Shown here: positions 8,618 through 40,381 of the stretch, piece after piece
Layout of the letters: each line of letters opens with the position of its first letter
Position numbering within the stretch: position 1 is the stretch's first letter
From: a virus
Direction: 5' to 3' (one strand)
DNA: 40,588 nucleotides
Virus record (IMG/VR): IMGVR_UViG_3300037193_001007
Location: 1 to 40,588 of that record
Position numbers and translations under genes: made by a program
Notes under the pieces: generated by a model
What the model was told of the DNA's origin: nothing
The model's input: only the letters and a program-made list of their open reading frames with translations
The model's database searches: none

Positions 8618-8646
8618 CTCACCCGGGCTCTAGGGAGTCGATTGCC
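8618..8646 (-). promoter_or_regulatory. 29-bp dispersed element, copy 6
   Basis: Minus-strand GGCAATCGACTCCCTAGA, four variable bases, then GGGTGAG. It lies between a terminator and the start of the 8589 operon. Six copies share this orientation relative to transcription and the same 29-bp length, which supports a promoter with two conserved boxes (CAATCGACTC and GGGTGA). Confidence 0.75.
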
Positions 8647-8664
8647 TGGCGCCCTGCGGACATG

Positions 8665-8698
8665 GAAAAACCCCCCGGAGCCAGGCTCCGAGGGGTTC
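8665..8698 (-). terminator. rho-independent terminator
   Basis: Minus strand ACCCCTCGGAGCC pairs with GGCTCCGGGGGGT and is followed by TTTTTCC. It lies directly after the sigma-like gene and before the 29-bp element that starts the next operon. Confidence 0.85.
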
Positions 8699-8716
8699 TG
8701 TGTACGCGCCAGCGCC

Positions 8717-9652
8717 CTACTTGCGCCCGCCATGCGCGAGGCACAGCGCGGCTGCGATCTCCAGCGCGTCAGCCAGGGGAGCATCCCACGCCCGTACGGC
8801 CGCCACCCAGCGCTTCGCGAAATTCTTCATGCCCTTGGTGCGTGCGGGGCGGAGGTTGCAGACCGGAATCCCCAGGAACGCGGCCATCCCCGCGTTGTCG
8901 CACCCATCGCCGTGTCCGAAATTCGCAGCTCCTCGGATGCCGAACGAATGCTCTATGACCTTCCGTTGCCCCTCGCCCAGGCTGTCGAGGACTGAGTGCA
9001 CAAGAGTGTGCTTCGCACGCCTGTCCTCGGAGTTCAGGTCATCGGCCGTTGTCAGGTCGTCGGGTACCAGCTCGGAGAGGGCCTGCACGAAGCGAACAGC
9101 GCCACCCGGGCTGGTCGCACGTGTCGTCTGCGGAGGTACGTCCAGCGACTGAGTACCCTGCCACGCGAGCCGCGCAGCGTTCGCCCTGTCAGCGCTCAGC
9201 CGCTTGCCCGTAGGCGGGGCTGTCTGCGCCAGCTTCTCCGCCGCGTACACGTCGCCGTTGGTAAGTTCCAGCATGGCGCCAAATATCTTCATCGCGTCGG
9301 CATCAGCACCCGCCGCGCCGTTCCGCTCGCTGCGCACAGCGTCCATCAGCGTGCCATCGACCGTCGTGTAGATGAACGCAAAGAACGAGTCAACGGTCTC
9401 GCCCTTGAAGCGCGGGAGCGCCTCCCACACGGCGATACGGCCGGTTTGGGTGAACTCCTCTACGAACTCGGCGAAGCGATCCCCCTTGCCATACGACGAC
9501 GTTCCACCCTCACTGTGCCCGCACATGCGCCGCGCCGCGCGCTCCGCGAGCTTGGTGACCCGCGTCTCGGTGGCTGCGATGACGGCCGCCGTAGCGTCAA
9601 GGTCGTTGGCCTGCGCGGCGGTGATCTGGTCGAAGGTCAGTGTGTCGGTCAC
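8717..9652 (-). CDS. RNA polymerase sigma-factor-like protein
   Basis: 311 residues from GTG 9652 (ribosome site AGGGGAGAGG). A region 2-like segment runs through GRIAVWEALPRFKGETVDSF then FAFIYTTVDGTLMDAVRSE (about 90-130), resembling the core-binding/-10 helices of sigma70 proteins. Near the C-terminus LDSLGEGQRKVIEHSFGIRG and AGMAAFLGIPVCNLRPARTK form a region 4-like helix-turn-helix. The middle is unusually long. It would redirect host RNA polymerase to phage promoters. The gene has both a palindrome-linked promoter and a 29-bp element upstream, so host-driven onset followed by autoactivation is possible. Family assignment by eye. Confidence 0.75.
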   Translation of the reverse strand: MTDTLTFDQITAAQANDLDATAAVIAATETRVTKLAERAARRMCGHSEGGTSSYGKGDRFAEFVEEFTQTGRIAVWEALPRFKGETVDSFFAFIYTTVDGTLMDAVRSERNGAAGADADAMKIFGAMLELTNGDVYAAEKLAQTAPPTGKRLSADRANAARLAWQGTQSLDVPPQTTRATSPGGAVRFVQALSELVPDDLTTADDLNSEDRRAKHTLVHSVLDSLGEGQRKVIEHSFGIRGAANFGHGDGCDNAGMAAFLGIPVCNLRPARTKGMKNFAKRWVAAVRAWDAPLADALEIAAALCLAHGGRK

Positions 9653-9678
9653 GGTGTGCCTCTCCCCTGTCGGATGCT

Positions 9679-9707
9679 CTCACCCGAGAGTGAGAGAGTC
9701 GATTGCC
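9679..9707 (-). promoter_or_regulatory. 29-bp dispersed element, copy 5 (divergent)
   Basis: Minus-strand GGCAATCGACTCTCTCACT, then GGGTGAG. It keeps both conserved boxes but differs from the others in the centre, where CTAGA is replaced by CTCAC. It lies 26 bp before the sigma-like gene. Confidence 0.7.
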
Positions 9708-9867
9708 CGCTGAGTCCCCACCCCGCGCGGCGGTTTGTGGAGGCCCCGTGAAGGGCTGTGCCAAGTATGTGCCCTCCCTGGCCAGTTAGATGCCTGTCGG
9801 ACCGTCAGAGTGGGGCTTGTTGCCGAGACGTTACGCAAGCTCATCCCAGGGTAGGAGCTGAAAGCGC
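9708..9867. other. intergenic leader between two candidate promoters
   Basis: No credible gene is seen. A minus-strand frame across it (9680-9898) has no ribosome site and ends inside the 29-bp element, so it is treated as non-coding. Confidence 0.5.
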
Positions 9868-9933
9868 ATACTCCGGGAGTTGTGAAGATCAGTACCAAGC
9901 AGTACGGAGCACCTGCTAAATTTAGCAGGTGCT
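9868..9933 (-). promoter_or_regulatory. palindrome-linked promoter, copy 2
   Basis: Perfect 26-bp palindrome at 9908-9933, then 10 bp, TGGTAC (9897-9892), 18 bp, GAGTAT (9873-9868) on the minus strand. The hexamers are weaker than in the other two copies but the spacing is identical. It would transcribe towards the sigma-like gene. Confidence 0.55.
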
Positions 9934-9949
9934 CCGCGTGTGTAGCTGC

Positions 9950-10468
9950 TCACTCTGAGGCGCCTCGCCTCCGCGCGAAATGCCCAGGCAGCCAGTTGTC
10001 CAGCGACCGGCCACCCTTAGACCTGTTGCAGGGGGCGCACGCCGGTACCAGGTTCCACAGCGCATGCGCGCCTCCCAGGCACAGCGGGTGTTCGTGGTCT
10101 GCGTGCTCCCACGGTGCCCCGCAGTACACGCAGGCGTACGCGCCAATGTCATCCCAGTACGCGAAGAGATCGGCTTGCGTGAAGGGCTGCGCCTGCGCAC
10201 CCGCCAATCGGGCCCGACGACGCGCCACGTACGCACGTGACTGCGCCGCGTGCACTTCCGGATTTTCAGCCCTCCACTTCGCCGTGGCGCGCGCTTGATG
10301 CCCGGGGTCCGACGCTTGCTTGCGCGCGTACGCCGCCCGACCGGCCGCCCTGCTACGCTCCCCTCCCTGTTTGCTGGCTCGGTACTGCCGCATGTACTCG
10401 CGCTGACAGCCCGTGCACTTACCGTTCCGATTCGCTGGCTCGCCACATATGGCGCAACCCTTCGTCAT
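9950..10468 (-). CDS. HNH endonuclease with N-terminal zinc finger
   Basis: 172 residues. The N-terminal knuckle has CAIC at 5-8 and CTGC at 18-21. A basic linker (RAAGRAAYARKQ, VARRRARLAG) is followed by the HNH core: CVYCGAPWEHADHEHPLC, then HALWNLVPACAPCNRSKGGR. ATG 10468 overlaps the polymerase stop by one base (TAATG). Such enzymes occur as free-standing nicking or homing nucleases and this one follows the polymerase gene directly; DNA-processing and homing roles cannot be told apart here. Confidence 0.85.
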   Translation of the reverse strand: MTKGCAICGEPANRNGKCTGCQREYMRQYRASKQGGERSRAAGRAAYARKQASDPGHQARATAKWRAENPEVHAAQSRAYVARRRARLAGAQAQPFTQADLFAYWDDIGAYACVYCGAPWEHADHEHPLCLGGAHALWNLVPACAPCNRSKGGRSLDNWLPGHFARRRGASE

Positions 10469-12318
10469 TAGTAGTCAGCCCCAAGCAGCGAACCCCACGA
10501 ACGTCCGCCTATTTCTGCTTCTGCCTCAATCGGGACCCCAGACAGCTCCCAATTCATGCACTTTTCTATCTCCCGGGCTATCTCCTCCGCTGACTCTTTC
10601 GGCGCGCTGGCCAAGATTTCGTCGTGTACGGGCAGCCTCAGGTACGGCAGTAGCCCGGCGTCGTCCATGTTGATCAGGGACTGCCCGAGGACATCACGCG
10701 CCGTTGACTGAGTCGCGAAGTTGGTCACGGCGTACAGCCTGTCTCTGTCAAGTGGGAGCCGTCTGCCTGTGATACTCAAGTGCACCATGCCGGTTGCCCG
10801 CGCTTCCCTCTGCCATTGCCGAGCAGCACGACGAAGCTCCGGGTACGCACGATGGTACTTAGCCTGCGCCTCTTGCACTTGCTCTAGCGGGGCCCCAGTC
10901 TGGCGAGCGATAGTTGCCGCCCCCCCGCCGTAGATTGTGCCGTACCCAACTCCCTTACATATCTGCCTCTGTCCCTTCGTGAACTTCGGACCGTACACAA
11001 GTTCAGCCGTGAAGTCGTTCAGGTCACGGCCCTCACGAATTGCTGTCTTCATACGCCTCACTCCTGCCAGGGCCGCAATGACACGCATCTCAACGGATGC
11101 GAAGTCACAGGAGATCATGACGTGCCCCTCATCAGCGAGGAGCGCACGCCGGATCATCCATTCGCCCTTGGGCAGAGTCTGAAGCGCCGGGCGCGTGATG
11201 GACATGCGGCCCGTGCGTGCCTGGAGCGTGTTGATGCTGGGGTGTACGCGGCCGTTCCTGTCGGCCGTCGCTAGAAACGTCTCAGCGTACGCTGAGCGCC
11301 ACTTGCCCGCGCGCTTCGACTTGATGACCGCTTCCGCCAGCGGGTTGGGCGGGCGAAGCCCCAGCCGCTCGCCGGTTTGGAAATCCAAATCTGCGAAGCG
11401 ATGCAGCACCGCCTTACCGACCGACAGCTCTCCGCCGTCTGTGCGCTCCGTCCACGCCTCGCCCATACCCAGGAACGCCTCGCGCAACTGCGCGGGGGCA
11501 TTGACGTTCGTAACGCCGTAGCTTTGGCCGATCATGGCGTGCTTGTCCGCTTGGAAGAGCAGCTCTCGGGAGAGCTCCTCTGTGTATTCCCGGTCAAGCA
11601 CCATGCCCGTGAACTGCATGTGCGCGCAAATGCGGCTGATCTCGTGTTCGTAATCAACCAGCGCCTGCCTCATCGAAACGCGCTCAAGCTCAGCGAGGAG
11701 CACGGGCCGGAGCCGAGAGGTCAGGATGACATCCAACGCGGCGTACTCGGTGTACACGGGGTGAAACAGATCGATCCCAGCCCACCCCGTCGCCTTCGTA
11801 AGGCCCAGCGACCGGAACACGGCCGTGAGATCTTCCTGTGTGTCCGGCGCTGACGGATCGATGAAAACGGCGCTGAGTTCTTTCAGCTTCGCGCCAGTGC
11901 CACCCTCGTACTTCGCCCGAGGATCGCGCAACTTAGCCAGCACCATGGTGTCTAGTGCCTTACGGCACAGCATGTCGAGATCAAGGCTCAGATACGAGGC
12001 CAGCGCCGGGGCGTCGAAATTCCCCCAGTTGTGGCCTGTGAGCGCTGGCAGGCTTTCCAGGGCATCGCGGGCAGCCGCGCGGAAGGGTGTCCCGAGTTCC
12101 GTAGGAATAACCCAGGCATCTGTCTCCGTTCCGAACTGGACAAGACGGATGTACTCCGGGTCACCGGAGAGGATATCGAGCCCTTTGCCCTCGGTGTCCA
12201 CGGCCACGGGCTCCCGCTGTCGCCGCACCCACGCCAGGAACGGCGCGAGTTCATCGGGCCGCTCCGGCATCCACCCTTGCCACGGTCGCCCGCCAAGCGA
12301 CCCTCTGAACTCGCGCAC
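10468..12318 (-). CDS. polA: family A DNA polymerase (Pol I type)
   Basis: 616 residues; replicates phage DNA. The 3'-5' exonuclease has AVDTEGKG (Asp41, Glu43), GHNWGNFDAPA (Asp102) and YAALDVI (Asp196). Polymerase motifs: A, ISCDFASVEMR (Asp405); B, QICKGVGYGTIYGG (Lys455, Tyr459, Tyr463); C, PVHDEIL (Asp566, Glu567). No 5'-3' exonuclease domain. Tyr459 occupies the position of E. coli Phe762, as in T7 polymerase. Start is GTG, two bases after the primase-helicase stop codon. Transcribed with that gene. Confidence 0.96.
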   Translation of the reverse strand: MREFRGSLGGRPWQGWMPERPDELAPFLAWVRRQREPVAVDTEGKGLDILSGDPEYIRLVQFGTETDAWVIPTELGTPFRAAARDALESLPALTGHNWGNFDAPALASYLSLDLDMLCRKALDTMVLAKLRDPRAKYEGGTGAKLKELSAVFIDPSAPDTQEDLTAVFRSLGLTKATGWAGIDLFHPVYTEYAALDVILTSRLRPVLLAELERVSMRQALVDYEHEISRICAHMQFTGMVLDREYTEELSRELLFQADKHAMIGQSYGVTNVNAPAQLREAFLGMGEAWTERTDGGELSVGKAVLHRFADLDFQTGERLGLRPPNPLAEAVIKSKRAGKWRSAYAETFLATADRNGRVHPSINTLQARTGRMSITRPALQTLPKGEWMIRRALLADEGHVMISCDFASVEMRVIAALAGVRRMKTAIREGRDLNDFTAELVYGPKFTKGQRQICKGVGYGTIYGGGAATIARQTGAPLEQVQEAQAKYHRAYPELRRAARQWQREARATGMVHLSITGRRLPLDRDRLYAVTNFATQSTARDVLGQSLINMDDAGLLPYLRLPVHDEILASAPKESAEEIAREIEKCMNWELSGVPIEAEAEIGGRSWGSLLGADY

Positions 12319-12319
12319 T

Positions 12320-14710
12320 TCAGCCCTCCGTCCTGTCGAATATCCCGGGACCCGCAGGGGCGTTGTCCATCTCGCTGCACAGCGCGATGCCCCGATAGCA
12401 CCATTTGCCCCGAGCGTTTCGCGTCTCCTCTACGCCCTGTTGCATGAGAGCGCGCTTCACGGTTGACGGGGCGTACTTCCCGCTGCGATCGCCGTTCTCA
12501 TCCCGCCATTCCTTCAGCGCGCGGTTGAAATCGGCGCGGATAGTCTCGCGGCCTTCGGCGTACTCGAAAACCTCTCCGACAAGCTGCCGGATAGGGTCGA
12601 CCTCCGCCTTATGCCACTCGACAGCAGCGAGCACCGCCTGAGGCGCCTGCAAGCCGTTCGCGTAGTAATCCATCGCGCCGCGCACGACCCACGCGGCTAC
12701 GCCTTCGGCCTCTGGCCCCTGCACGGTCGGCTCCAATTCGGGATCCTCCCGCCCAGCGAAGGACTGACCAAAGAGCAACGCCTGCGTACGTGCCCACAGC
12801 GCTTCGCCGCCCGTGTTGAATTGGGGCAAGTTGTTCGTGGCCAGCACCACGTTGAAGCGCGGCGTGTAGGTAAACGGCATGCTGTAAAGCCGCCGCGCAT
12901 CTACGCTGTCCCCGCCGGACCATGCCTTCAACAACGCCGTCTTGATCGGCGCGTCGGGTGTCCCTTCCTGAAAGAACACGAGCCGCGCGGAGAACAACTG
13001 CGCCTGAAGCTGCTCGGGGTTCGAGCCGTCGCGGATGTTCTCAATCGGCGCCATGAACTTATCCGCTACCAACTCCGTGCCGAAAGCAGCTTTCAAGGTG
13101 CGGATAGTGGCTCCCTTCCCGTTGCGGCCGTGTGACCCGTACCACACACCGAGCTTGTGATCCCGCGTCTCGCCGCTGATGCCCATTCCGAGGAAACGCT
13201 GGTAATACGCCTGAAGCTCGGGTTCCCCCGGGAAGATTTCGTCTAGGAACTGGTCCCAGCGGGGCGAACGAGCCGAAGGCACGTAATCCACGTTCGCCAC
13301 GTGCGTGATCCGGTCGGCAGGGTCGTGCGGTCGCAGCGAGCCGTCGCGCAAATCCACCGTGCCATTCTGGAAATTCAGCAGATGGCGGTGCGGCTCGATG
13401 TCGTCCGGCTCTACCTGAACCTCGGGCAGTCGGCCGAGTTCCTCCACGATGTAGCGGCGATGCTGGCTGTTGAGAAGTACAGATTGCGCCTCGTCGGACC
13501 CTTCCCGCTGAGCCAGCGCGTTGGCCGTGTCGGTCAGCGCCGCGTACGCCGCCTCATTGTCGGCCCCTGCCCGCCACCGACGACCGTCCCACGTGTACCA
13601 GCCAACGCCCCTGACGTTCATGAGCACATCGCCAGCGACGCGACGCACCAACGAGGCGTAGTTGACGTGAGGGACGAGCTTGGTGTCCGAGTCGCGCGTC
13701 AGCGACGGCCGGAGCTGTCCTTTCCACTCGACGTCGTCAATCTCAGCGGGCGCCACATCAGCGGCGCTGGCGCTCAGGGGCATTGCAGCCTCCACAGCTT
13801 CGTGTAGTACCTCCGCGAATGCCGTGCGCAAGCTCGCGAACCAATCGCTGAGATCCCCGACCCCGTCCGGTAGAGCCAGCGCGCAGACCTCCACGCCATG
13901 CGCCGCGAGGCCCTGCGCCAGGCGCTGGTTGAACGCCTGCCCGGCGCTGTCGTTGTCGCCAGCGACGACCACGCGCTGACCGCGCAGGCCCTCGGCCAGT
14001 TCCGCAATCAGTTCCGGCGAAGCAGCGAGAGCGGCACCCCGCACGGCGACTGCGTCAAAGCCCGCGCCAACGGCCGTGAGGGCGTCTCCGGGTCCCTCGC
14101 ACACGAGAGTGGCCCCCGAGTGCCCGCCAGCGCGGAAGACGCCGTAAGACGCCCACCTGTGGCCTTCCGGGTTGGTCAGCGACAGCCAGCGTCCCGGGCA
14201 TTCCCCGCTGATGTCCCTGCCCTGGGCTCCGCGCGTGACTCCGTCAAACCCGTTGAGCGGCACGACGACTCGCGGGAACCGCGCGAAGCTGCGTGCCACG
14301 AACTCCGGGTGCTCATCGGAGGGAGCCCAGTAGCGGAGCCCCAGCGAGGCGGCCGTGTTGGTGTCAATGCCGAATCGGTCCTCCACGTATGAGCCGTCGC
14401 CAACCGGCAGCGAGTCGAGCCACACGCGGAGCCCAGCGACGTGCGCCGTGCCAACGGCAGCCGGTCGTTCCTTGGGCACAGTCACGGCGTCGCCGGTCAC
14501 GTCGAAGAGATTCCGCCATTCCAACCCTGCGGAGCGCACCACGTCCTCTGTCTTGCACCCTGCCCGGCAGTGGAGCCGTGCCTGCGCGTTGTCTCCGATC
14601 CAGAGGCGCAGCGAGGGGCGGGAATCGGTGTGGGCCGGACAGCGCATGAGGTAGCCGTCGGCGGTTTCGCTGACGTCCTCAAATCGGGTGAGAAGCTCGT
14701 CGATAGTCAT
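12320..14710 (-). CDS. primase-helicase fusion (zinc finger, Toprim, SF3 helicase)
   Basis: 796 residues. N-terminal CHC2-type zinc finger (Cys24, His27, Cys48, Cys52). Toprim motifs CEGPGDALTAVGAG (Glu205) and VVVAGDNDSAG (Asp252, Asp254) mark the primase. A D5_N-like region precedes an SF3 helicase with Walker A GSHGRNGKGAT (about 525-535), a Walker B-like strand SARLVFFQEG and sensor LATNNLPQF. It would unwind DNA and make primers for the adjacent polymerase. The start overlaps the preceding HNH stop (ATGA). Confidence 0.95.
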   Translation of the reverse strand: MTIDELLTRFEDVSETADGYLMRCPAHTDSRPSLRLWIGDNAQARLHCRAGCKTEDVVRSAGLEWRNLFDVTGDAVTVPKERPAAVGTAHVAGLRVWLDSLPVGDGSYVEDRFGIDTNTAASLGLRYWAPSDEHPEFVARSFARFPRVVVPLNGFDGVTRGAQGRDISGECPGRWLSLTNPEGHRWASYGVFRAGGHSGATLVCEGPGDALTAVGAGFDAVAVRGAALAASPELIAELAEGLRGQRVVVAGDNDSAGQAFNQRLAQGLAAHGVEVCALALPDGVGDLSDWFASLRTAFAEVLHEAVEAAMPLSASAADVAPAEIDDVEWKGQLRPSLTRDSDTKLVPHVNYASLVRRVAGDVLMNVRGVGWYTWDGRRWRAGADNEAAYAALTDTANALAQREGSDEAQSVLLNSQHRRYIVEELGRLPEVQVEPDDIEPHRHLLNFQNGTVDLRDGSLRPHDPADRITHVANVDYVPSARSPRWDQFLDEIFPGEPELQAYYQRFLGMGISGETRDHKLGVWYGSHGRNGKGATIRTLKAAFGTELVADKFMAPIENIRDGSNPEQLQAQLFSARLVFFQEGTPDAPIKTALLKAWSGGDSVDARRLYSMPFTYTPRFNVVLATNNLPQFNTGGEALWARTQALLFGQSFAGREDPELEPTVQGPEAEGVAAWVVRGAMDYYANGLQAPQAVLAAVEWHKAEVDPIRQLVGEVFEYAEGRETIRADFNRALKEWRDENGDRSGKYAPSTVKRALMQQGVEETRNARGKWCYRGIALCSEMDNAPAGPGIFDRTEG

Positions 14711-16388: not shown

Positions 16389-17099
16389 TCAGCCACGCTC
16401 CTGCGCGATGGCCTTGTTGTAGCTGCTCTTGACGACGATTTCCGGGTGCCGGTAGGACACGTCCTTGTCAAGCCGCTGGCTGTAGTAGGAGACGTGGTTC
16501 AGCCGGAGCACACACAGCGCAGGCTCGCCTATGCGATCGAGCTTGTTCTGCACGCCGTAGACGGCCTCAGCGAAGTCCCAGGCGGTAGCGTTCAGCTCCC
16601 CCAGCCCAAGCTCGGGATCCTCCGCCAGGCGGAAGCGGACGGTCACATACGGGCGGGGCCCGGGGTTACGCTTGCGGCGCGACGCCTCCTTGGCCTCCCG
16701 CAGCGTGGGAGGGCAACCGCAGGGCTGACCCGTGTCCTCCTCGGAGTCCACGAAAACCCGCCCGTCGCAAACGTGCTCCGGCCCGTTCGCGCCCCACTTG
16801 ATGCGCTTCGCGTCGATGTCATCCGCGCTGTCGATGACGATTTCGACGGAATCCGACGACGTCATGACGTGGAGGTTCATCTCCTTTTCAGAGTCGTACT
16901 CCTCTGGAGTGCCGCCCATAAGCTGGCCGATGGCGTCGGCAATGCTCTCCTCACCAGTCAGCACCCGCCACTCAGGGAGCGAGGCGGGAAGGCCATCGAT
17001 CAGCATTCCCGACTTGAAGGTGAAGGCGGGAGCCTCGTACTTGCCACCACCCCTCGGCTTGCCGTCGGGGTCGGGCGCGAAAATGTTGCGTCGGGCCAT
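16389..17099 (-). CDS. phiC31 gp3-like recombination directionality factor (candidate)
   Basis: 236 residues. The pattern MARRNIFAPDPDGKPRGGGK, PASLPEWRVLTGEESIADAI, GQPCGCPPTLREAKEASRRK and the C-terminal SSYNKAIAQ matches my recollection of phiC31 gp3 in order and length (244 residues there). Gp3-type proteins bind the serine integrase and switch it from attP x attB to attL x attR recombination, so this gene would control excision. The integrase in this genome makes the pairing sensible. A 29-bp element lies 114 bp upstream. Assignment from memory, not by search. Confidence 0.65.
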   Translation of the reverse strand: MARRNIFAPDPDGKPRGGGKYEAPAFTFKSGMLIDGLPASLPEWRVLTGEESIADAIGQLMGGTPEEYDSEKEMNLHVMTSSDSVEIVIDSADDIDAKRIKWGANGPEHVCDGRVFVDSEEDTGQPCGCPPTLREAKEASRRKRNPGPRPYVTVRFRLAEDPELGLGELNATAWDFAEAVYGVQNKLDRIGEPALCVLRLNHVSYYSQRLDKDVSYRHPEIVVKSSYNKAIAQERG

Positions 17100-17212
17100 G
17101 GGGGCCGCCTCTCCTGTTAGATGCCTTTGGTCAGGGGAAGCGGCGGGGTAACTGCGCCTTACGGGCATTGCTGTGGTGCGCCCTGCGCAGGCTTCCTGCC
17201 GCCGCTTCCCCC

Positions 17213-17241
17213 TTCACCCGGGGTCTAGGGAGTCGATTGCC
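17213..17241 (-). promoter_or_regulatory. 29-bp dispersed element, copy 4
   Basis: Minus-strand GGCAATCGACTCCCTAGA, four bases, GGGTGAA. It follows the terminator at 17273-17304 and precedes the gp3-like gene by 114 bp. Confidence 0.75.
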
Positions 17242-18760: not shown

Positions 18761-18880
18761 CTACGCCCCCCTCAAAACAAGAACTCTGACCACCTTGTTA
18801 CGCGCCACCTGCGGGCGCACAGACTGAATCCACTCGTCGCCGCTGGCAGTAACGACTCGCCACATGAACCGCCGCTTCAT
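18761..18880 (-). CDS. 39-aa basic protein
   Basis: Starts MKRRFMWRVVTASGDEWIQS, ends VVRVLVLRGA. ATG 18880 overlaps the exonuclease stop (TGATG) and is preceded by GGAGAGGCGAAGC. Strongly basic with beta-like stretches. Too short for assignment. Confidence 0.55.
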   Translation of the reverse strand: MKRRFMWRVVTASGDEWIQSVRPQVARNKVVRVLVLRGA

Positions 18881-19671
18881 CAGCTTCGCCTCTCCGTCCC
18901 GGTTTCGATCGCGCCCGTTTCCCACTCGACGTCACCGAGTACGCGCGCCGAGATCTGCTTGTCCCACGCCCATGTCTGTCTCAGCGCGAGGAAAGTGGCA
19001 AAAACCTCGTCGTCCAGCGCGACGGGCTTGTACACCGCGCGCTCCGGCTTGATGTGAACCACTGCCCCACGGTTGATCTCCGGCATAGGCAGTGGCGTCC
19101 CCCCGTGCGGGATCAGTAGGTCGGACCGCTGGTACGCGGTGAGCTGCAACGCCACGTCAGGGTATGCGTCCTTCGAGGTCTTGTAGTCGATGATCTCGAC
19201 CAGTCCGCGCACGCGAGCGAGTGCATCAAAGCTCCCCGCATAGCCGTGGGTCTCGGACCATGCGACGCCTTCAGCGCAGATCAGCTCCGGCTGGTATTCG
19301 GCCAGCCACTCTTCAAAGTGCCGCCGGTAGGGCTCCATGTCCGGGTGCACCCTGCCGACGCGCTGGCCGGTAATTAGCCGCTCGAAGAGGTCGTGCGCAC
19401 GGCTGCCCACGTCGCTGCGTGTGTCCGTGTAGCGCTTGGCCGCACCCTTCAGGTACTGGACTGCCCCGCGCCGGTCGCGCGCAGCCATGGCGGGCAGCAC
19501 GTCGAGTGAATCGACGGCAAGTTCTGCCGTCATACCCGCGTACCACCAGTTCAGGAACGGCTTAGGCAGCATGCCCGTGATGCTGGTGACGCTGGGGACA
19601 GCCCCGGCCTCAGGCCGATCCGTATCGATGTAGTGTCGGGTGCCGTTTATCGGCATGGTCTTGATGGTCAT
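18880..19671 (-). CDS. PD-(D/E)XK exonuclease (RecB/Cas4-like)
   Basis: 263 residues. The nuclease core is GYAGSFDALARVRGLVEIID followed by YKTSKDAYPDVALQLTAYQ: Asp in GSFDAL, Glu-X-Asp-Tyr-Lys in EIIDYKTS, and the QLTAYQ helix, as in RecB-type nucleases. Earlier, VPSVTSITGMLPKPFLNWWY resembles other phage exonucleases. Likely role in DNA recombination or replication. First gene of an operon that runs to 17317, with a 29-bp element about 20 bp before the ATG. Confidence 0.85.
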   Translation of the reverse strand: MTIKTMPINGTRHYIDTDRPEAGAVPSVTSITGMLPKPFLNWWYAGMTAELAVDSLDVLPAMAARDRRGAVQYLKGAAKRYTDTRSDVGSRAHDLFERLITGQRVGRVHPDMEPYRRHFEEWLAEYQPELICAEGVAWSETHGYAGSFDALARVRGLVEIIDYKTSKDAYPDVALQLTAYQRSDLLIPHGGTPLPMPEINRGAVVHIKPERAVYKPVALDDEVFATFLALRQTWAWDKQISARVLGDVEWETGAIETGTERRS

Positions 19672-19692: not shown

Positions 19693-19721
19693 CTCACCCG
19701 GGGTCTAGGGAGTCGATTGCC
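19693..19721 (-). promoter_or_regulatory. 29-bp dispersed element, copy 3
   Basis: Minus-strand GGCAATCGACTCCCTAGA, four bases, GGGTGAG. The last box is about 21 bp from the exonuclease ATG. A GACAGCGAGAGGG motif and the 78-bp array follow on the right, the same order as at the contig ends. Confidence 0.78.
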
Positions 19722-20779: not shown

Positions 20780-21790
20780 TTAGAGCTGCGCCCGGAGTTT
20801 GGCTAGTTCAGCGATTGCAGCGTCTAGCTTGTTTGCGACGTCAGCCCGCGTCGCTTCGTCATCGGCTTTCTTGACCGCCTTTACCGTTCGCCGCAAATCC
20901 TTTGTAGTGCGCTCCACTACGTTCGCTACGTGCTCCGCCGGAGCTTCGGGCGCTTCTCCGATGAATCGCAGCTCCTCATCCGTGAGCGTTTCGCCCAACT
21001 CCCGCTTAGCCCTGAGCTCCTTCCTTCGCTGGCGATTCTCGCGGTCTAGCTCGCGCCGCCCCTTCAGCGCGAACCCGTAGTGCGCGGCAACAGCCTCCGC
21101 AGGCGTTACACCCTCCGACCTAGCCGAGATGATGCGCCCGAAACGTTCCGCGCGCTCCGGGTTGTCGTTCAGGCTGCGCGCGAACGCCGCCCGGACGTCA
21201 CTCTTCCAATTCTGCTGACTGCGCAACAGACGGTCCATGGCCTCTGCGACATCGCGCTCATCTGCGTCCGTCTGAGCGCGGAAAAGCTCGCCAGCCTGCG
21301 TGATCAGGTCGCTGGTGGCGTCGCGCGCTCCCTGACTTGACCCCATGAGGTCGGGGTCGCCGAACTTGTTGCTCATCGTGGAGTGAATCTCTAGGAGCGT
21401 TTCGGCAATCTCGCGGCTGACCTCGGACGCTCGGAGGTTTAGGCGCACACCCTCCGCGTATTGCTTGGCACCCTTGGCTACCATCTTTTCGGCGCCTGGG
21501 ATGTCCTTGTAGTTCTGGGTTTCCAACAGCTCCACTTCTACCGTCGGCGCAGGTGTCGGCTTTGGCGTGCCTTCGGCAGCTTCTTTCAGTGCCGCGCGCT
21601 TTTCCTTCTTAGCGGCGACGGATCCTTTGCCGGACAGCGAGGAAATTAGCCCCTCCGTCTCGCTGGCGAGTTCCGCCATGCCCGCCTCGTTCTCTGCTTC
21701 AGCGAGGCTGCGCATTCGTTCGACATTATCGTCGATTTGCTGCACGAAGCGCAGCCCATCCTCGCTGGTGATGTCTACCTTGGTGGCCAT
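20780..21790 (-). CDS. coiled-coil protein, 336 aa; candidate lysogeny-region regulator
   Basis: ATG 21790 has AAGGGACAGGGT upstream. Mostly helical: N-terminal heptads (IDDNVERMRSLAEAENEAGM), a Pro/Thr linker near 80-90, a middle domain (RLNLRASEVSREIAETLLEI), a possible helix-turn-helix-like segment (VTPAEAVAAHYGFALKGRRE) and a Lys/Arg/Glu-rich end. The gene has the best host-type promoter in the window (TTGACA, 18 bp, TAGGGT), flanked by a palindrome, and is followed by small genes. This expression pattern would suit a prophage-expressed protein. No repressor family was recognised, so the role is a guess. Confidence 0.65.
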   Translation of the reverse strand: MATKVDITSEDGLRFVQQIDDNVERMRSLAEAENEAGMAELASETEGLISSLSGKGSVAAKKEKRAALKEAAEGTPKPTPAPTVEVELLETQNYKDIPGAEKMVAKGAKQYAEGVRLNLRASEVSREIAETLLEIHSTMSNKFGDPDLMGSSQGARDATSDLITQAGELFRAQTDADERDVAEAMDRLLRSQQNWKSDVRAAFARSLNDNPERAERFGRIISARSEGVTPAEAVAAHYGFALKGRRELDRENRQRRKELRAKRELGETLTDEELRFIGEAPEAPAEHVANVVERTTKDLRRTVKAVKKADDEATRADVANKLDAAIAELAKLRAQL

Positions 21791-21825
21791 ACCCTGTCCC
21801 TTCGGCATAGATCTACTCCATAGGG

Positions 21826-21891
21826 ACCCTACGGGGGCCTGGCAGTAGCTGTCAATACGACACCTAGCACCTGCTAAAAATAGCAGGTGCT
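21826..21891 (-). promoter_or_regulatory. palindrome-linked promoter, copy 3 (consensus host promoter)
   Basis: Minus strand: near-perfect 26-bp palindrome (21866-21891; AAAAAT centre), 10 bp, TTGACA (21855-21850), 18 bp, TAGGGT (21831-21826). Both hexamers match the Streptomyces major sigma consensus (TTGACR/TAGRRT). The expected start is about 30 nt before ATG 21790. A regulator bound at the palindrome would touch RNA polymerase just upstream of -35. Confidence 0.78.
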
Positions 21892-21943: not shown

Positions 21944-22510
21944 TCAGCGGGTCGCTAGGTGCGCGGCCTGCGTGTAGAGATCTTCGAGGGTAGAGATGTT
22001 GCACAGCGTCCAGTCAGCGGGGAAGCCGTTCAGCGCCGTCTCGCTGACGTGCTCGCTGCCGGGCACGTCACCACGGTCGGGCCGGACGACGCGGGTCATC
22101 GTGAAGCCGCTCGCGCGGAGCGCGTTGTATTCGTTCGGGTACCGGCAGTCAGTGATGACTACGGGACGCCCGGCGTTGCGCGCATCGGTGATTGTGGTTA
22201 CTGCGATGCTGAGCCAGAAGTCCTCATCCAAATCCCGCACGCCCTGCCCGATGTGCTGAAGGATGCGCCTGACTTCCGGGAATTTGTTCTTGGCGTACTC
22301 CCAGCCGTGACCTGCGTCAAGCACATGCGACAGTCGCAAGTCTCCGCCAATGACACTGCGGCTGATGATCGGGTCAAGCTTCAGCGCCGCCTCGCGCAGC
22401 GGATCGGCGAACGCCACGCGCGTGTAGCCGTAGGTCTCGCAGAGGTACGCCGCAACCGTATCCTTGCCGCTCCGGGCTCTGCCCATGAGCGCGATGTCTC
22501 GGGTTCCCAT
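21944..22510 (-). CDS. deoxynucleoside monophosphate kinase
   Basis: 188 residues. N-terminal P-loop GRARSGKDT (about 10-18), then ADPLREAALKLD and a C-terminal region VVRPDRGDVPGSEHVSETAL typical of phage dNMP kinases (T4 gp1-like family). It phosphorylates deoxynucleotides for phage DNA synthesis. Single-gene unit between the 29-bp element (22529-22557) and the terminator. Confidence 0.85.
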   Translation of the reverse strand: MGTRDIALMGRARSGKDTVAAYLCETYGYTRVAFADPLREAALKLDPIISRSVIGGDLRLSHVLDAGHGWEYAKNKFPEVRRILQHIGQGVRDLDEDFWLSIAVTTITDARNAGRPVVITDCRYPNEYNALRASGFTMTRVVRPDRGDVPGSEHVSETALNGFPADWTLCNISTLEDLYTQAAHLATR

Positions 22511-22528: not shown

Positions 22529-22557
22529 CTCACCCGACGTCTAGGGAGTCGATTGCT
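22529..22557 (-). promoter_or_regulatory. 29-bp dispersed element, copy 2
   Basis: Minus-strand GCAATCGACTCCCTAGA, four bases, GGGTGAG. The last box is about 20 nt from the kinase ATG, so the leader would be very short. It lies back to back with the plus-strand promoter at 22571-22599. Confidence 0.78.
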
Positions 22558-33888: not shown

Positions 33889-33909
33889 GGATATTCTCCA
33901 ATCCCGAAA

Positions 33910-33939
33910 CGGCGGGCAGGGAAACAACCCCGCCCGCCG
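33910..33939 (-). terminator. attenuating terminator after capsid gene
   Basis: CGGCGGGCGGGG pairs with CCCTGCCCGCCG on the minus strand, then TTTCGGG. It lies between capsid and connector genes and would give a capsid-biased message. Confidence 0.75.
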
Positions 33940-33950
33940 AATCATGTAGA

Positions 33951-35156: not shown

Positions 35157-35171
35157 TGTGTCTCCTTTGGG

Positions 35172-35810
35172 TTATCGGTAGCGGCGAGACAGGATTTGTG
35201 CCCGTGCCGCAGCGCCCGACGTTGTGACGGGCAGATCGGTTCTCTTGAACAGGCGCCGGAGTTCCCCCCGTTGCGCCAGCGCGCGAACCTCGTTGGGGTC
35301 CGCATCCATGTGCCCGGCCAAGCTCCGCAGACCGGCAGAGGAATCCGGGTAAGCGGGGGTGTTAACCGGCGCGACGTCCACTAGGCGGACGCTGTGCAGT
35401 ACCCGCAGCGGGAGGTCGCCCGACCGGCTTTCCCATGAATCTTCAACCTTGATGAAGGCGAACGAGGACTTCCGCACGTCGCCCCTCTGGACGAGTTCGA
35501 ACACGTCCGCGCGGGCAGCGGGCATATCCACGTCGTAGCGCAGCCCCGTCTCGTCGATATCGAGCTGAAGCGTTCCGCTGTCCGACGTGCCAAGCAGCAT
35601 GTTGTCATCGTGGTTGTACCGGGCGACCACACCCGGCCACCCCTCAGCGCGCGATGCCTCGAACGCGCCGGGGTCTACCATCTCCACGAACCCGCCAAGG
35701 TCGGATGACCGGCGGTTGAATACCGACGCGTAACCGCCGATGCTGCGCCGCTCACTTTCCGCGCGCACTTCAACGGTCAGTGCTACAAAGCGCCGTTCAG
35801 TGTCACTCAC
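35172..35810 (-). CDS. HK97 prohead protease
   Basis: 212 residues from GTG 35810. Catalytic His67 in ARYNHDDNM and Ser116 in RKSSFAFI match the S78 family. Cleaves the capsid delta domain during maturation. The start overlaps the portal stop by 8 nt, so the two are translated together. Confidence 0.92.
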   Translation of the reverse strand: MSDTERRFVALTVEVRAESERRSIGGYASVFNRRSSDLGGFVEMVDPGAFEASRAEGWPGVVARYNHDDNMLLGTSDSGTLQLDIDETGLRYDVDMPAARADVFELVQRGDVRKSSFAFIKVEDSWESRSGDLPLRVLHSVRLVDVAPVNTPAYPDSSAGLRSLAGHMDADPNEVRALAQRGELRRLFKRTDLPVTTSGAAARAQILSRRYR

Positions 35811-37059
35811 TGGCGCTCCCTTCGTCAGTCTGTGTCAGCGCCGGAGCCGGGGCTGTAATCGGCGCATCGCCCCACGGCACAGGCGGGAGATCTTCAAGTG
35901 CCCTAATTTCGTTGGGGACTTTCCAGCCCCCTGTGAGGGCCAAATTGTGCGCCTGGTACCTGTCCAGCGTTGACGCGCGAATCATGGCGTCGGCGTTGAA
36001 CTTCACGAACTCGCTGCCCGGCATCAGCGCCGACAGGCGAGACTCGATAAGCACTAGCCACGAACGCAGCGTCATATTCACGAATTCGATCTGCCGCTGT
36101 TCCGGCGAACTGTAGGTGTACGAGCCGCCCGTTTCCCCGCCGACCATTTCCGGAGGAACGCCGTAGATGGCGGCAATCTGCGTGGCGTTGAGGCGCATTG
36201 TCGAAATGAATTGCGACTCCTCCGGGCTCACCTGAAGGGCCGTGAATTCCCAGTCAGCGCCATGGACGAGCGGCTTACCCGAACGAATCGACGCCATAAG
36301 GCGATCGCGAATTTCCTCGGATTCGTCGCGCGTGATGGTCTTCTGCGAATTCCGCATCACGCCGGGCGGGGCGCCGCCATTCTCGAACCATCGCAATCCG
36401 TAGCTGGACGCTGACAGCCCTACGCCGATGGTCTGGGCAAACACCCGAATAGGCGACAGTCCCGTCACGCAGCCCGGGGGAACCATCCACGCAACGTGAA
36501 AGATGAGATCGGACGGGACTTCTACCCCCTGCCAGTAGTAAACCGGCAGCGTGGGGCGTGTTTCGTCCACGAAGACATCATCGGGACTAAGCCACTCAAT
36601 TTGCGTGGGAAAGCCCAGCCGGTCACGCTCCACAATCAGGCCATAGGCATTACCGCGAAGCGCCAGCGAATACACCAGCTTGTTAATCCACTGGTACAGA
36701 TTGTCCACGGCAGCCGGGCGGAATAGCAATTGCGGAATGTACGAAACCGGCTGCCCGTCATTCCCGCTGCGCCGGTAAAGCTGAATAGGCAGCGAGGCAA
36801 TCGTATTCGCGAGAATACGCACGCAGGCCCACACGGGGACCAGCGACATGGCGGATTCCGCAGTTACCGCTGAGGTACGAGGGCCCCCAGTATTCCAGGG
36901 CAGCGAGGAAATCGCCCTAGCGGACACGCCCCTCAGCGCCCGAAAGGGGGCGGTAAGAGCGCGCACAGTACGGCTCCACGCGCTAGTGGTCGGCGCCGAC
37001 GCAGGCTCACCCGTATACCATGCGCCGTCTGGGCCAAGCGTCGGCATGTCGCCTCCCAT
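35803..37059 (-). CDS. portal protein (HK97 family)
   Basis: 418 residues if ATG 37059 (overlapping TGATG of terL) is used; a second ATG at 37047 follows GGGAGG with tight spacing and may be used instead. Motifs: AESAMSLVPVWACVRILANT (early helix), WLSPDDVFVDETRPTLPVYY, LNATQIAAIYGVPPEMVGGE. Forms the dodecameric DNA entry vertex. Confidence 0.95.
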   Translation of the reverse strand: MGGDMPTLGPDGAWYTGEPASAPTTSAWSRTVRALTAPFRALRGVSARAISSLPWNTGGPRTSAVTAESAMSLVPVWACVRILANTIASLPIQLYRRSGNDGQPVSYIPQLLFRPAAVDNLYQWINKLVYSLALRGNAYGLIVERDRLGFPTQIEWLSPDDVFVDETRPTLPVYYWQGVEVPSDLIFHVAWMVPPGCVTGLSPIRVFAQTIGVGLSASSYGLRWFENGGAPPGVMRNSQKTITRDESEEIRDRLMASIRSGKPLVHGADWEFTALQVSPEESQFISTMRLNATQIAAIYGVPPEMVGGETGGSYTYSSPEQRQIEFVNMTLRSWLVLIESRLSALMPGSEFVKFNADAMIRASTLDRYQAHNLALTGGWKVPNEIRALEDLPPVPWGDAPITAPAPALTQTDEGSASE

Positions 37060-38555
37060 CAGAGTACGGAATCCCGCACGTCATATTCGTTGTCCACGAT
37101 CAAGTGAGCGCGCGATTCGAAAGCCCAGCGCGCCAGCGTCACGGACACCAGCGGCGAGATATCCACCGTGCTGAGCCGACGGGCCCATGCGTAGGCGTCA
37201 CCCAACGGGCGCGTCTTGGCACCGCGTATGGCGTTTTCCAGTAGCTCCTGGCCGATATGCCGGATCGTGCCCTGCGTGACAGCGTCAACGAGCTGACCGC
37301 ACCCGGCTGCGACGTCCTGCGCTGTCGGTACGGCTAGGTGACCCCACGCGGGTTCGCTGTCGCTCGGGGGCTCTATGCCTCGCTTTGCGAGATCAACAAG
37401 CAGCGTGGCGGCAGGCCCCTTGGCATCAAGCCCAATGGCTACCGGCTGCCAACGCTCGTGAAGCTGCGCCAGTCGCTCAACCAGCCAATCAGTACCGGGC
37501 CTGTGGTCGATTACCTCCGCGTGACCGTGCCCATCAGCGCGCAGGCCATAGGCAGCGATGGATGCGAAATCGCGCGACGGCGTGATGTCCACAGCGAAGG
37601 CGACAGCGCCCGTGCGGCGGGAATCCCGCTCACACAACGCGGCCCACTGATCGAGATCGATAACCCCGGACTCGGACGTAGCCTTGGGCAGCCAGGCGCC
37701 GAGACGCTCAGTCATGAATCGATCGCCCAGGCCCGAGGGCTGAGCTTCGTCAGAAACAAAGTCCTCGTCTATTCGGAAACCCATAGCCGGATTGCACTGG
37801 TACCAGAGGTCAACGTCTCGCGCGGCGCGCTTCTGGTCGTCCTGGTCAGTCGGATCTAGGTCCGTGCCCCAATCGAAATGCGCAAGACGAGGAACACCCG
37901 CCTCGCCGTCGGCGCGCAGGCCGTAGACCCACGCGGCGGGATCGTCCGGCGGGGTGCCGAAGAACCACACCTGAGGATTCGGAACGGCTGCCAGCGTGGG
38001 GAGGAGCGCCGCCATTTGCGGCTGCACGATCTCCTGCGCCTCGTCAAGGATGTGCTTATGGCCCGTGAACCCACGGCCGGAGCCGCGAGAGCGCGCGATG
38101 AATCGTAGACGGCCGCCCCCAGCGGAGCGCGTCAGCTCGATGCCTTGCTCTCCGTTAGCCTGCCAGTAGCGATTTACCCGCCGGTCAAGGTCGGGCGTCT
38201 CCTGAATCAGGGTCTTGATTCGCAGGAAGCCTTCCTGCGCGGTCTTGTATTCGTGCGCGCTGTGCAGGATCAGCGGCTCGCGCGTCAGGAATAGCCAGCC
38301 CAACTCAAGAGCCTCAATAACGCCGCCCTTGCCGTTCTGACGGGGCACCCAAAGCGAGCACTTCAGTGCAGCCCATTTGCCGCGCGGAGTCTCCCCGAGT
38401 CCGTGTGTCAGTACGTATCGCTGCCACGGGTCAAGCGTGAGGCCTGCGGACTCGGCGAGATCGATGAACTCGGGTGCGGCGGACGTCGCGTACTCCGGGT
38501 ATCTAGCTACCCGTGGCGTTTGCGATCCTCGCCTGTCGGCGTGCGGTGAGTTCAT
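37059..38555 (-). CDS. terL: terminase large subunit
   Basis: 498 residues from ATG 38555, with a near-perfect site AGGAGGTGA in the end of terS. Walker A VPRQNGKG (about 70-77), Walker B HILDEAQE (Asp171-Glu172), and nuclease acidic residues in FAVDITPSRDFASI, IGLDAKGPAATLL and PLGDAYAWARR. ATP-driven packaging motor and endonuclease; Terminase_1 class. Confidence 0.96.
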   Translation of the reverse strand: MNSPHADRRGSQTPRVARYPEYATSAAPEFIDLAESAGLTLDPWQRYVLTHGLGETPRGKWAALKCSLWVPRQNGKGGVIEALELGWLFLTREPLILHSAHEYKTAQEGFLRIKTLIQETPDLDRRVNRYWQANGEQGIELTRSAGGGRLRFIARSRGSGRGFTGHKHILDEAQEIVQPQMAALLPTLAAVPNPQVWFFGTPPDDPAAWVYGLRADGEAGVPRLAHFDWGTDLDPTDQDDQKRAARDVDLWYQCNPAMGFRIDEDFVSDEAQPSGLGDRFMTERLGAWLPKATSESGVIDLDQWAALCERDSRRTGAVAFAVDITPSRDFASIAAYGLRADGHGHAEVIDHRPGTDWLVERLAQLHERWQPVAIGLDAKGPAATLLVDLAKRGIEPPSDSEPAWGHLAVPTAQDVAAGCGQLVDAVTQGTIRHIGQELLENAIRGAKTRPLGDAYAWARRLSTVDISPLVSVTLARWAFESRAHLIVDNEYDVRDSVL

Positions 38556-38745
38556 CAAGCTTGCTCACCTCCTGTCCGCCGGTCATCGCGTCCAGCTCGG
38601 TGAGCACAGCGCGTAGCTCCCGCGCGATGGCGGCAACCTGCCCCGGCTCGGCGCTACAGAGCGCTACCTCAAGCCGTTCACTAAGCGCGACCAGTGCCGC
38701 CCGCCGATCACCCCGAGTTATTCTTTCGGTGATTCCGTCACGCAT
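38503..38745 (-). CDS. terS: terminase small subunit
   Basis: 80 residues from ATG 38745, site AGGAGAATTAACC. MRDGITERITRGDRRAALVA, RELRAVLTELDAMTGGQEVS, then DELTARRQARIANATGS: the short HK97-type actinophage small terminase. Overlaps terL by 53 nt. It recognises the packaging site. Confidence 0.85.
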   Translation of the reverse strand: MRDGITERITRGDRRAALVALSERLEVALCSAEPGQVAAIARELRAVLTELDAMTGGQEVSKLDELTARRQARIANATGS

Positions 38746-38904
38746 GGTTAATTCTCCTATTAACTCTCCGTGACACTCACCGGAAGTCACATCAGGTAGT
38801 GGCGTTGCGGGTAGTAGCCGGGGGTAAAACCGCAGGTCAGAGGCCTGATCACGGCTCGTGAGGCGCGGGGAGAGAATCGGCCGCCAAGGGCGTGTGGCAG
38901 GCCG
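38746..38904. other. terminase leader region
   Basis: No gene is seen between terS and the repeat at 38905. A GCAGGTCAGAGG motif (38831-38842) is shared with the left end (229-240). A packaging site could lie here but none is identifiable. Confidence 0.4.
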
Positions 38905-38970
38905 TTGACCTGCATAAAGAAACGGAGTGTAATCAGACTCGATTCACACTGCGTTATCTATGCAGGTCAA
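38905..38970. promoter_or_regulatory. inverted TTGACCTGCATA repeat with facing promoters
   Basis: TTGACCTGCATA (38905-38916) recurs inverted at 38959-38970. Each is a -35-like box with a 17-bp spacer: plus strand leads to TGTAAT (38934-38939); minus strand leads to GTGAAT (38947-38942) and would transcribe terS. AT-rich for this genome. Interpretation as a late promoter with an overlapping operator is inference. Confidence 0.5.
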
Positions 38971-39077
38971 AGCCTTGCGTCACACTGTGTTCGTCACGAT
39001 TGGTGACGAGATTCTGTTCACGCGCTGTGATTTCGATTGGGTTCACTCTCCGTGATCCCCAGCGGGATAGCTCTGCG
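38971..39077. other. intergenic hairpin-rich segment
   Basis: Contains TCACACTG twice and CGTCACGATTGGTGACG (about 38993-39009), a short inverted repeat with a 5-base loop. No gene. Position between the HNH gene and terminase suits control or packaging signals. Confidence 0.4.
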
Positions 39078-39368
39078 TCACCAATCCTGGGATGTACGCA
39101 GCGTGCGGACCACGGGCCCGTTACCTCGCTCCGCGTTGCACGCCCTACCACATGTGCGGCACTTGCCGTTACCGCCGTGGGCAGGGCGCATGGCGTACGG
39201 GTCATCGGGTTGGTCGGGGTCAAGGCTCACGGGGATGATGTGGTCTGCCTCTGTGGCGCCCGCGTGCCCACATAGATGGCAGATGTCGCCGTAGATAGCG
39301 AACATCTGCTCTCGCGCACGTCGGTACGGTCGTCCATCCCGGCGTTTGTGCCTACGTCGCTCGGACAT
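39078..39368 (-). CDS. HNH endonuclease next to terminase, 96 aa
   Basis: ATG 39368 with CGGGAGTGCC. CHLCGHAGATEADHIIPVSL, then HGGNGKCRTCGRACNAERGN: an HNH domain with flanking zinc cysteines. In HK97-type phages such small HNH proteins next to terminase stimulate terminase cleavage during packaging. Here it precedes terS by about 330 bp. Confidence 0.88.
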   Translation of the reverse strand: MSERRRHKRRDGRPYRRAREQMFAIYGDICHLCGHAGATEADHIIPVSLDPDQPDDPYAMRPAHGGNGKCRTCGRACNAERGNGPVVRTLRTSQDW

Positions 39369-39412
39369 CAGGCACTCCCGTTTATAGATGTGCGGGCCGG
39401 ACGCGCGTTGGT

Positions 39413-39480
39413 CGGCAGTGAGGGAATCGAACCCCCGTCTACCCCACCTTTGGGGCGCTCTCACCAACTGCTGTCCGCCA
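39413..39480 (-). tRNA. tRNA-like element with 4-base anticodon-stem loop
   Basis: Canonical T arm (GGGGGTTCGATTCCCTC) and D-arm-like AGTTGGTGAGAGCG, but the next stem CCCCA/TGGGG closes over only AAGG, so no seven-base anticodon loop with U33 can be drawn. The 5' acceptor TGGCGGA pairs poorly with the 3' ACTGCCG. A better match, CGGCAGT, lies upstream at 39549-39555, so the 3' half may belong to a longer interrupted element. Confidence 0.45.
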
Positions 39481-39507
39481 AGACACATATTCAGGGCCCT
39501 GTGTCGG

Positions 39508-39555
39508 TGCGCGTCAGTCGGTGCCCGTGAACACGGGCCATTGAGCTAACTGCCG
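39508..39555 (-). other. 5' half of a tRNA-like element
   Basis: CGGCAGT, then TAGCTCAATGG (acceptor, D-stem start) as in a normal tRNA 5' half, but followed by the hairpin CCCGTGTTCACGGG instead of a D stem and anticodon arm. CGGCAGT pairs 7 of 7 with the 3' acceptor at 39413-39419, about 75 nt further than normal, or 6 of 7 with a nearby ACTGACG. Either a split tRNA gene, insertion or a remnant of recombination. Confidence 0.4.
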
Positions 39556-39601
39556 AGTCTGAATTGCTGCACGGGCCCCGCCGTCGTGCAGCCGCAGCAG
39601 C

Positions 39602-39672
39602 GATGATGGTGGGACTTGAACCCACCCTCTCCCGGCAAGCCGGAGCTTAGTCCTGGTTTAAGCTTCATCATC
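39602..39672 (-). tRNA. tRNA-like element with contracted anticodon arm
   Basis: Perfect acceptor GATGATG/CATCATC, D stem GCTT/AAGC and T arm GTGGGTTCAAGTCCCAC. The anticodon arm is too short: CCGG pairs with CCGG over CTTG, total 71 nt in spite of an 11-base D loop. A seven-base loop can only be drawn by taking the last D-stem base, and then U33 is C. Identity unknown; not clearly functional in decoding. Confidence 0.5.
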
Positions 39673-39774
39673 GATGCTGCTACTCGACACCGCCAGCGAG
39701 AGGGCCAAAGGCCGTACTGGCTGTGTGCCTTCGGGCGCGTGCTGCGCAGTCACGCACGGGGCGCCCAATACCAC

Positions 39775-39870
39775 GGCGGTGAATGGGCTCGAACCATTCG
39801 GGGACTCGGGGATCAGCCGCATGCGCCAGCATTCCCAGGGAATCGAACCCTGCCCCATTCCTTTACCGCC
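39775..39870 (-). other. tRNA-like element, T arm and acceptor only
   Basis: GGCGGT (39870-39865) pairs with ACCGCC (39780-39775), and GAATGGTTCGAGCCCATTC is a clean T arm. Between them lies CAGGGTTCGATTCCCTG, a second hairpin that looks like a T arm but sits where no standard tRNA has one, and no D stem. May be a fusion of two broken tRNAs. Total 96 nt. Confidence 0.4.
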
Positions 39871-39873
39871 TGG

Positions 39874-39947
39874 CGCTCCCTGCCGGATTCGAACCGGCGC
39901 CCCTCCGCTCGACAGGCGGACGCTCTAGACCACTGAGCTAAGGGAGC
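39874..39947 (-). tRNA. tRNA-Asp (GTC)
   Basis: Full cloverleaf: acceptor GCTCCCT/AGGGAGC, D stem GCTC/GAGC, anticodon stem TCCGC/GCGGA with loop CTGTCGA (anticodon GTC), T arm GCCGGTTCGAATCCGGC, G discriminator. The only canonical tRNA in the cluster. No CCA is encoded. It would aid translation of Asp-rich phage genes. Confidence 0.93.
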
Positions 39948-39950
39948 AAG

Positions 39951-40019
39951 TGCTGCGGCGGGATTCGAACCCGCACCTACCCGCGCGATGCGGGCGCTCT
40001 GCCGTTGAGCTACGCAGCT
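39951..40019 (-). tRNA. tRNA-like element with 5-base anticodon-stem loop
   Basis: Acceptor AGCTGCG/CGCAGCA (last pair A-A), TA, D stem GCTC/GAGC, T arm GCGGGTTCGAATCCCGC. After G26 the arm is CCCGC/GCGGG closed over only ATCGC. A 7-base loop (CATCGCG) needs removal of base 26, and has A at position 33. 69 nt in total. Identity unclear. Confidence 0.5.
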
Positions 40020-40165
40020 AGGGCGCCGCCCGTCGGCATTGCCCTCTAAACGGTCCCTCATCGCCCCTGAGCGGCCTGTGGGCGGCCCAAATCACGTGAG
40101 GGTTTCATGCCTTGCGAGCGTGCCACAGAAAGGCCCGCAGGGCCGCGCCCGTCGAAGCGCGCAAG

Positions 40166-40243
40166 TGGACATGGCCGGAGTCGAACCGGCGTACAGCGAG
40201 GCTCCGCGTGCGGCTTTCCTCGCTGTCGATACCCTTCATGCCC
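40166..40243 (-). other. tRNA-like element with a 9-bp helix in place of D and anticodon arms
   Basis: Acceptor GGGCATG/CATGTCC with a G3-U70 pair and A73 discriminator, the identity elements of tRNA-Ala and tmRNA, and T arm GCCGGTTCGACTCCGGC. Instead of D and anticodon arms there is AAGGGTATCG followed by ACAGCGAGG paired with CCTCGCTGT. It looks like the tRNA-like half of a tmRNA in outline only. No tag frame was identified. Alanine charging is inference. Confidence 0.45.
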
Positions 40244-40352
40244 GGGAGCCCGCGCGACTCGGAACACCAACCGGAGAGGGGATCGGTGGAGCCGACGCGG
40301 GCAACGAGGGTGGGCCGCAGTCCGCCAGAATCAGTGCGCGGGAGCATCCGCC

Positions 40353-40381
40353 CTCACCCTATATCTAGAGAGTCGATTGCC
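40353..40381 (-). promoter_or_regulatory. 29-bp dispersed element, copy 1
   Basis: Minus-strand GGCAATCGACTCTCTAGA, four bases, GGGTGAG. About 110 bp upstream of the first tRNA-like element, and the nearest upstream promoter candidate for the tRNA cluster; read-through could reach the HNH and late genes. Confidence 0.75.

Follow-up and report, generated by a model that had tools for sequence, protein, structure and literature searches.

In the SPO1 and T4 switches, a phage sigma factor (gp28 and gp55, respectively) directs the host core RNA polymerase to phage promoters. For phiC31, phage-specific lytic promoters and a late promoter, lp1, were reportedly described in work by Ingham in 1993, Wilson in 1995, and Howe and Smith in 1996. 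The repeats found in phiC31 (GGGTTGCCGACTCCCTTAC) and phiBT1 (GGTCACCGACTCCCTTAC) stand before gp52, gp1, gp3, gp12, gp13 and the tRNA, among others; we take them to be the phage-specific lytic promoters that were mapped during the 1990s in phiC31. In its early-to-late half, phiC31 has ten copies of the repeat, CCGGGTTGCCGACTCCCTTAC. The six copies of the element studied here are syntenic with these repeats and stand at the same genes.

The stretch of DNA analysed (40,588 nt, hereafter the window) is by its sequence a phiC31-like Streptomyces phage. Besides head and tail genes, it has genes for a serine integrase, a family A DNA polymerase and a D5-type primase, as well as for an exonuclease, a dNMP kinase and a gp3/RDF-like protein, and its gene order matches that of phiC31. 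The first 141 bp are identical to the last 141 bp (1-141 and 40448-40588), so this is probably a complete genome whose ends overlap. A 60-bp stretch is repeated at 7567-7626 and 8279-8338, 712 bp apart and with 93% identity, which is likely a local duplication.

The element is 28 bp long and its six copies are in register, all on the minus strand. The pattern GCAATCGACTCN3AGAN4GGGTGA, with at most three mismatches, matches exactly six times in the window against a mean of 0.02 in shuffles; the same-orientation, minus-strand copies listed in an earlier sequence-only reading are therefore real, although the starts given there were one base low. A weight matrix found no seventh copy in the window, the next score being 9.5 as compared with 36.7-42.2 for the known copies, and elsewhere in viral contigs the exact motif occurred as one single copy in an 87-kb contig, which we take as chance. 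Five copies lie before gene starts and one before the tRNA cluster, just as that reading had placed them: 8619..8646 precedes a 54-aa gene (8425-8589) at the position of phiC31 gp13; 9680..9707 precedes the sigma gene itself; 17214..17241 precedes the gp3/RDF-like gene (16389-17168; Pfam Gp3-like); 19694..19721 precedes the exonuclease gene (18880-19671), where phiC31 has gp1; and 22530..22556 precedes the dNMP kinase gene (21944-22510), where phiC31 has gp52. The distances from these elements to the start codons are 29, 27, 45, 22 and 19 nt, respectively. The sixth, a late-type copy with ATATAGG at 40354..40381, stands before a tmRNA-like RNA and tRNAs, at the position of the pre-tRNA copy of phiC31.

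The consensus of the element is GGCAATCGACTC-CCTAGA-CCCC-GGGTGA. The view that only two short boxes are conserved proved too narrow, as the middle CTAGA is also kept in five of the six copies; the exception is the sigma-gene copy, in which TCTCAC replaces CCTAGA (CTCAC in the middle). This copy contains a dyad, CTCAC..GTGAG, that is absent from the other copies of the window, and by eye we also observed dyads in the sigma-gene copies of other lineages, namely GACTTC..GAAGTC in phiC31 and GACTCG..CGAGTC in an IMG/VR locus (L074). Three copies had been said to follow terminators directly; this is clear for 8619 and 17214, whereas 19694 is preceded by a weaker hairpin with a T-run. No terminator came up in a consensus scan of 8500-10500.

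The orthologous lytic genes of the window are preceded by the repeat on their coding strand, as in phiC31, and the core shared with the phiC31 repeat is CGACTCCCT. A motif search in related phages encoding the sigma factor, proposed with the original observation, was run and recovered lineage versions of the element. Whole-genome k-mer counting was swamped by coding repeats, and an EM search in the intergenic gaps of 13 genomes was used instead; it yielded de novo the versions of TG1, Rowa, Euratis, Shawty, Heather and AbbeyMikolon, and weaker versions in Attoomi and phiSASD1. In Shaeky and Sycamore, a shifted version, GGGCTTTACCTACTC, was found by hand before the sigma gene. ATATAGG is common to the copies before the tRNA or late operon in the window, phiC31, phiBT1, TG1, Euratis and Shawty. 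GGGTGA is conserved only in the lineage of the window phage, and the cross-lineage core is the GG...CGACTC.CT part. We regard the element as a probable fresh case of the phiC31-type promoter already known, not as a novel class of element.

The 311-aa protein encoded at 8717..9652 on the minus strand, a homologue of phiC31 gp12, had been called sigma-like, and the designation holds: sequence profiles and a predicted fold indicate that it is a true sigma factor with regions 2-4. It has a PHROG sigma match (E 4e-102), and RefSeq annotates gp12 homologues as RNA polymerase sigma factor. Region 2 is present (Pfam PF04542, Sigma70_r2, E 8e-7) and was found in 31 of 34 relatives; region 4 was seen by the single-sequence Pfam scan in only one of the 34 members, and a profile built from these relatives matches region 4 of RpoD in the PDB (E 6e-5). 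The AlphaFold model of the gp12 homologue (pLDDT 84) matches SigB, SigS and SigA chains in the PDB, its domain arrangement being unsure because of the low pTM of 0.46. One copy of the element does precede the sigma factor's own gene, both here and in most relatives.

If the element is read by this sigma factor, the two should change together. Relatives were retrieved as 80 IMG/VR loci by an alignment query, a single-protein scan of viral contigs having given none. Most of the 80 carry a lineage-specific 16-mer 45-70 nt before the sigma gene, which recurs at similar offsets (about -8000, -7100, -4900, -2400, +1200 and +10000), almost only on the coding strand. A box matching a template (at least 14 of 18 positions) precedes the sigma gene in 75 of 86 sequences, a partly circular count, since these sequences also supplied the templates. 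When recurrence was tested more strictly, only 18 of 78 loci scored above all 20 random regions, a small number because coding repeats inflate the null. Box and sigma distances are correlated over the 68 distinct sigmas (0.84), and partial Mantel tests gave 0.793 (p 0.001) for box and sigma given DNA polymerase, as compared with -0.033 for box and DNA polymerase given sigma. For the primase box, which is 4.9 kb away, the value for sigma given polymerase and primase was 0.599 (p 0.002), and those for the controls given sigma were 0.08 (polymerase) and 0.14 (primase). That this distant box tracks the sigma and not the controls argues that the box is read by the sigma and is not just adjacent to its gene. 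With two control proteins only, DNA polymerase and primase, the co-divergence could partly reflect shared ancestry that these proteins miss; a co-variation test at the exonuclease site covered five genomes, too few to inform. The proposal that the elements are promoters read by the phage's own sigma is well supported by the synteny with phiC31 and phiBT1, the predicted sigma fold, the box-sigma co-divergence and the copy before the sigma gene.

Other readings have to be weighed against this one. It is unlikely that the promoters are read by a host alternative sigma, or by a host RNA polymerase that a different phage protein has altered, with gp12 acting elsewhere. Such a reading gains from the box start GG.AA., which resembles ECF-type -35 boxes; yet box divergence follows gp12 with neighbouring proteins controlled for, and no other sigma or RNA polymerase gene was present among the window proteins scanned. 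Far less probable still is a set of promoters for a T7-like single-subunit RNA polymerase, even though CGACTCTCTAGATATAGGGTGA (copy 40354) and CGACTC.CTA resemble the T7 promoter. No single-subunit RNA polymerase is found among the large ORFs of the window, those of more than 600 aa all being DNA polymerase, primase, tail and tape-measure proteins, and the shifted boxes of relatives are without the T7 core. With no such polymerase gene among the large ORFs, we rejected this candidate for this genome; it stands only if a host or helper supplies the polymerase.

We also find it very improbable that the elements are operators, start-associated sequences or leader RNA elements instead of promoters. 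Their position close before start codons and the ability of part of the box to pair with the Shine-Dalgarno (SD) sequence would fit such a function, but copy 40354 precedes RNAs and has no start codon behind it, in each genome the repressor-type palindromes are a family of their own, and the box co-varies with the sigma factor.

We consider it highly probable that the repeat is the phage-specific promoter of a temperate phiC31-like phage, read by the host core together with the phage sigma gp12 (8717-9652), and that it drives a self-amplifying lytic switch; the transcription starts, the sigma dependence, the autoactivation and the repressor control in this scheme are what we infer. Loss of the repressor would lead to the production of a little gp12, which with the host core would fire its own promoter and the other copies, turning on the lytic operons (dNMP kinase, exonuclease, gp3, gp13 and the tRNA/late operon), for which the boxes would replace host promoters; the action of gp12 on its own gene would make the switch self-amplifying. 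Transcription may start in one of two ways: GGCAAT would be the -35 and GGGTGA the -10 box, with a spacing of 16, or the 17-20-bp core would be an extended -10 with a start near GGGTGA. The source of the first gp12 would be a puzzle if its own promoter needs gp12. A scan of 8500-10500, the region of the 8619 and 9680 copies, revealed no host sigma-70 promoter (TTGACA and TATAAT, 16-18 nt apart) near the sigma gene, and the window shows nothing clearly comparable to what two relatives have. In phiSASD1 (L018) and AbbeyMikolon (L016), we observed TTGACC-N18-TACTAT and TTGTGT-N18-TACTAT, respectively, each 100-210 bp upstream of the sigma gene and with a palindrome in the spacer; these host-type promoters are candidates for a repressor-controlled source of the first sigma.

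Before activation, a repressor at separate palindromic operators would keep the switch off. A perfect 26-bp palindrome, AGCACCTGCTAAATTTAGCAGGTGCT, lies at 9908..9933 on the minus strand, roughly 250 bp before the sigma gene; further copies are at 5894-5919 and 21866-21891, the latter before a repressor-like gene. Each relative has its own version of the palindrome, in a family separate from the promoter repeat. These palindromes are probable CIR-like repressor operators, and the candidate for binding them is a 342-aa protein (20780..21808, minus strand) that occupies the place of the phiC31 repressor c by its phrog_19947 match and synteny.

RNA folding predictions suggest that many boxes of the family lie in hairpins that hide the ribosome-binding site (RBS) of the next gene in read-through RNA. 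At 84 promoter-preceded gene starts, the mean unpaired probability of the SD sequence in read-through RNA is 0.245. Shuffling the upstream part raises it to 0.380 (p 6e-8), and a value of 0.50 is predicted for RNA that starts at the end of the box; there is no effect at the 234 control gene starts that lack a box (0.395 vs 0.402 shuffled). At least five SD bases pair upstream at 43 of the 84 sites, mostly with the box itself (CCCTTC), and in several sigma-gene copies the SD sequence pairs with the stretch just before the box. For the sigma gene, the native value is 0.205 vs 0.335 in chimeras with the 5' half of another lineage (p 4e-8; p 0.007 when tested by 14 lineage groups). The p-values of these hairpin tests are optimistic because the sites are related. 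In the window, predicted SD exposure is below that of shuffles at four of five sites, none strongly. Such a hairpin over the RBS of gp12 would hinder leaky expression, not help it. Somewhat tentatively, with the balance tipped slightly against it, we propose that in the phiC31-like family the fast-diverging sigma and box form matched, possibly mutually exclusive pairs and that the promoters are nested in RBS-hiding hairpins, such that read-through RNA would be left untranslated and each operon, including that of the sigma gene, would be expressed only when the sigma fires its own promoter.

Behind the 40354 copy, the Rfam tmRNA model matches 40163-40243 on the minus strand end to end in only 81 nt; Rfam sees this RNA only as a tmRNA with its middle missing, and the covarying family to which it belongs is unnamed there. 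A model from the window and Shaeky RNAs, plus a pattern scan, brought together 51 members from phage contigs and three actinobacterial genomes, among them L013 (42932-43013) and 49 other loci (the L102-L150 group, L165, L179 and L183). Covariation across these members is strong, with changes on both sides in 15 of 23 pairs and pairing in 97.9% of cells; all share a tRNA-like domain and a long covarying stem and keep G3-U70 and the hairpin core AAAGCCGCANGCGGA, the invariance of this core being partly by construction, as it was in the search pattern. None of the 51 has room for a tag reading frame. The RNA looks like the tRNA-like domain of tmRNA alone, possibly a decoy or tagless rescue RNA. 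At 39601-39672 (minus strand), we observed a third tRNA-like gene of the cluster (37.8 bits, short anticodon arm), which ARAGORN missed.

The classic Streptomyces phage promoters are now tied by co-divergence to a specific sigma that was previously only annotated, and the dozens of natural sigma-promoter pairs might be used in Streptomyces as independent expression tools; a second lock on this switch, at the level of translation, is suggested by the nested hairpins. In the literature searched, the older phiC31 papers lying outside it, we found no earlier description of the sigma assignment by co-divergence or of the nested hairpins.

The closest boxes are those of Rowa and the IMG/VR loci L021-L026, which are nearly identical to that of the window (GGCATTCGACTCACTAG, GGCAGTCGACTCGCTAG, GGCCATCGACTCCCTAGA) with sigmas 47-59% identical; the downstream block differs, reading TTCYGA in Rowa. 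The window agrees with the phiC31 promoters in gene positions, strand logic, the core and the ATATAGG variant before the tRNA/late operon, but it has six copies where phiC31 has about ten, its 5' half is GGCAAT instead of GGTTGC, GGGTGA is conserved, and there is no copy before the primase or DNA polymerase. As in the SPO1 gp28 and T4 gp55 switches, a phage sigma would redirect the host core to phage promoters; unlike those, the window sigma has regions 2 to 4 and its gene lies behind its own promoter class. In the leaders of T4 gene e, soc and I-TevI, a promoter lies inside the 5' arm of an RBS-hiding hairpin (PMC3014915, which also describes gp55 as a phage sigma). The arrangement proposed here resembles that of gene e, in that a promoter in the 5' hairpin arm would leave read-through RNA poorly translated, and differs from it in being predicted only, across many genes of a phage family and weakly in the window.
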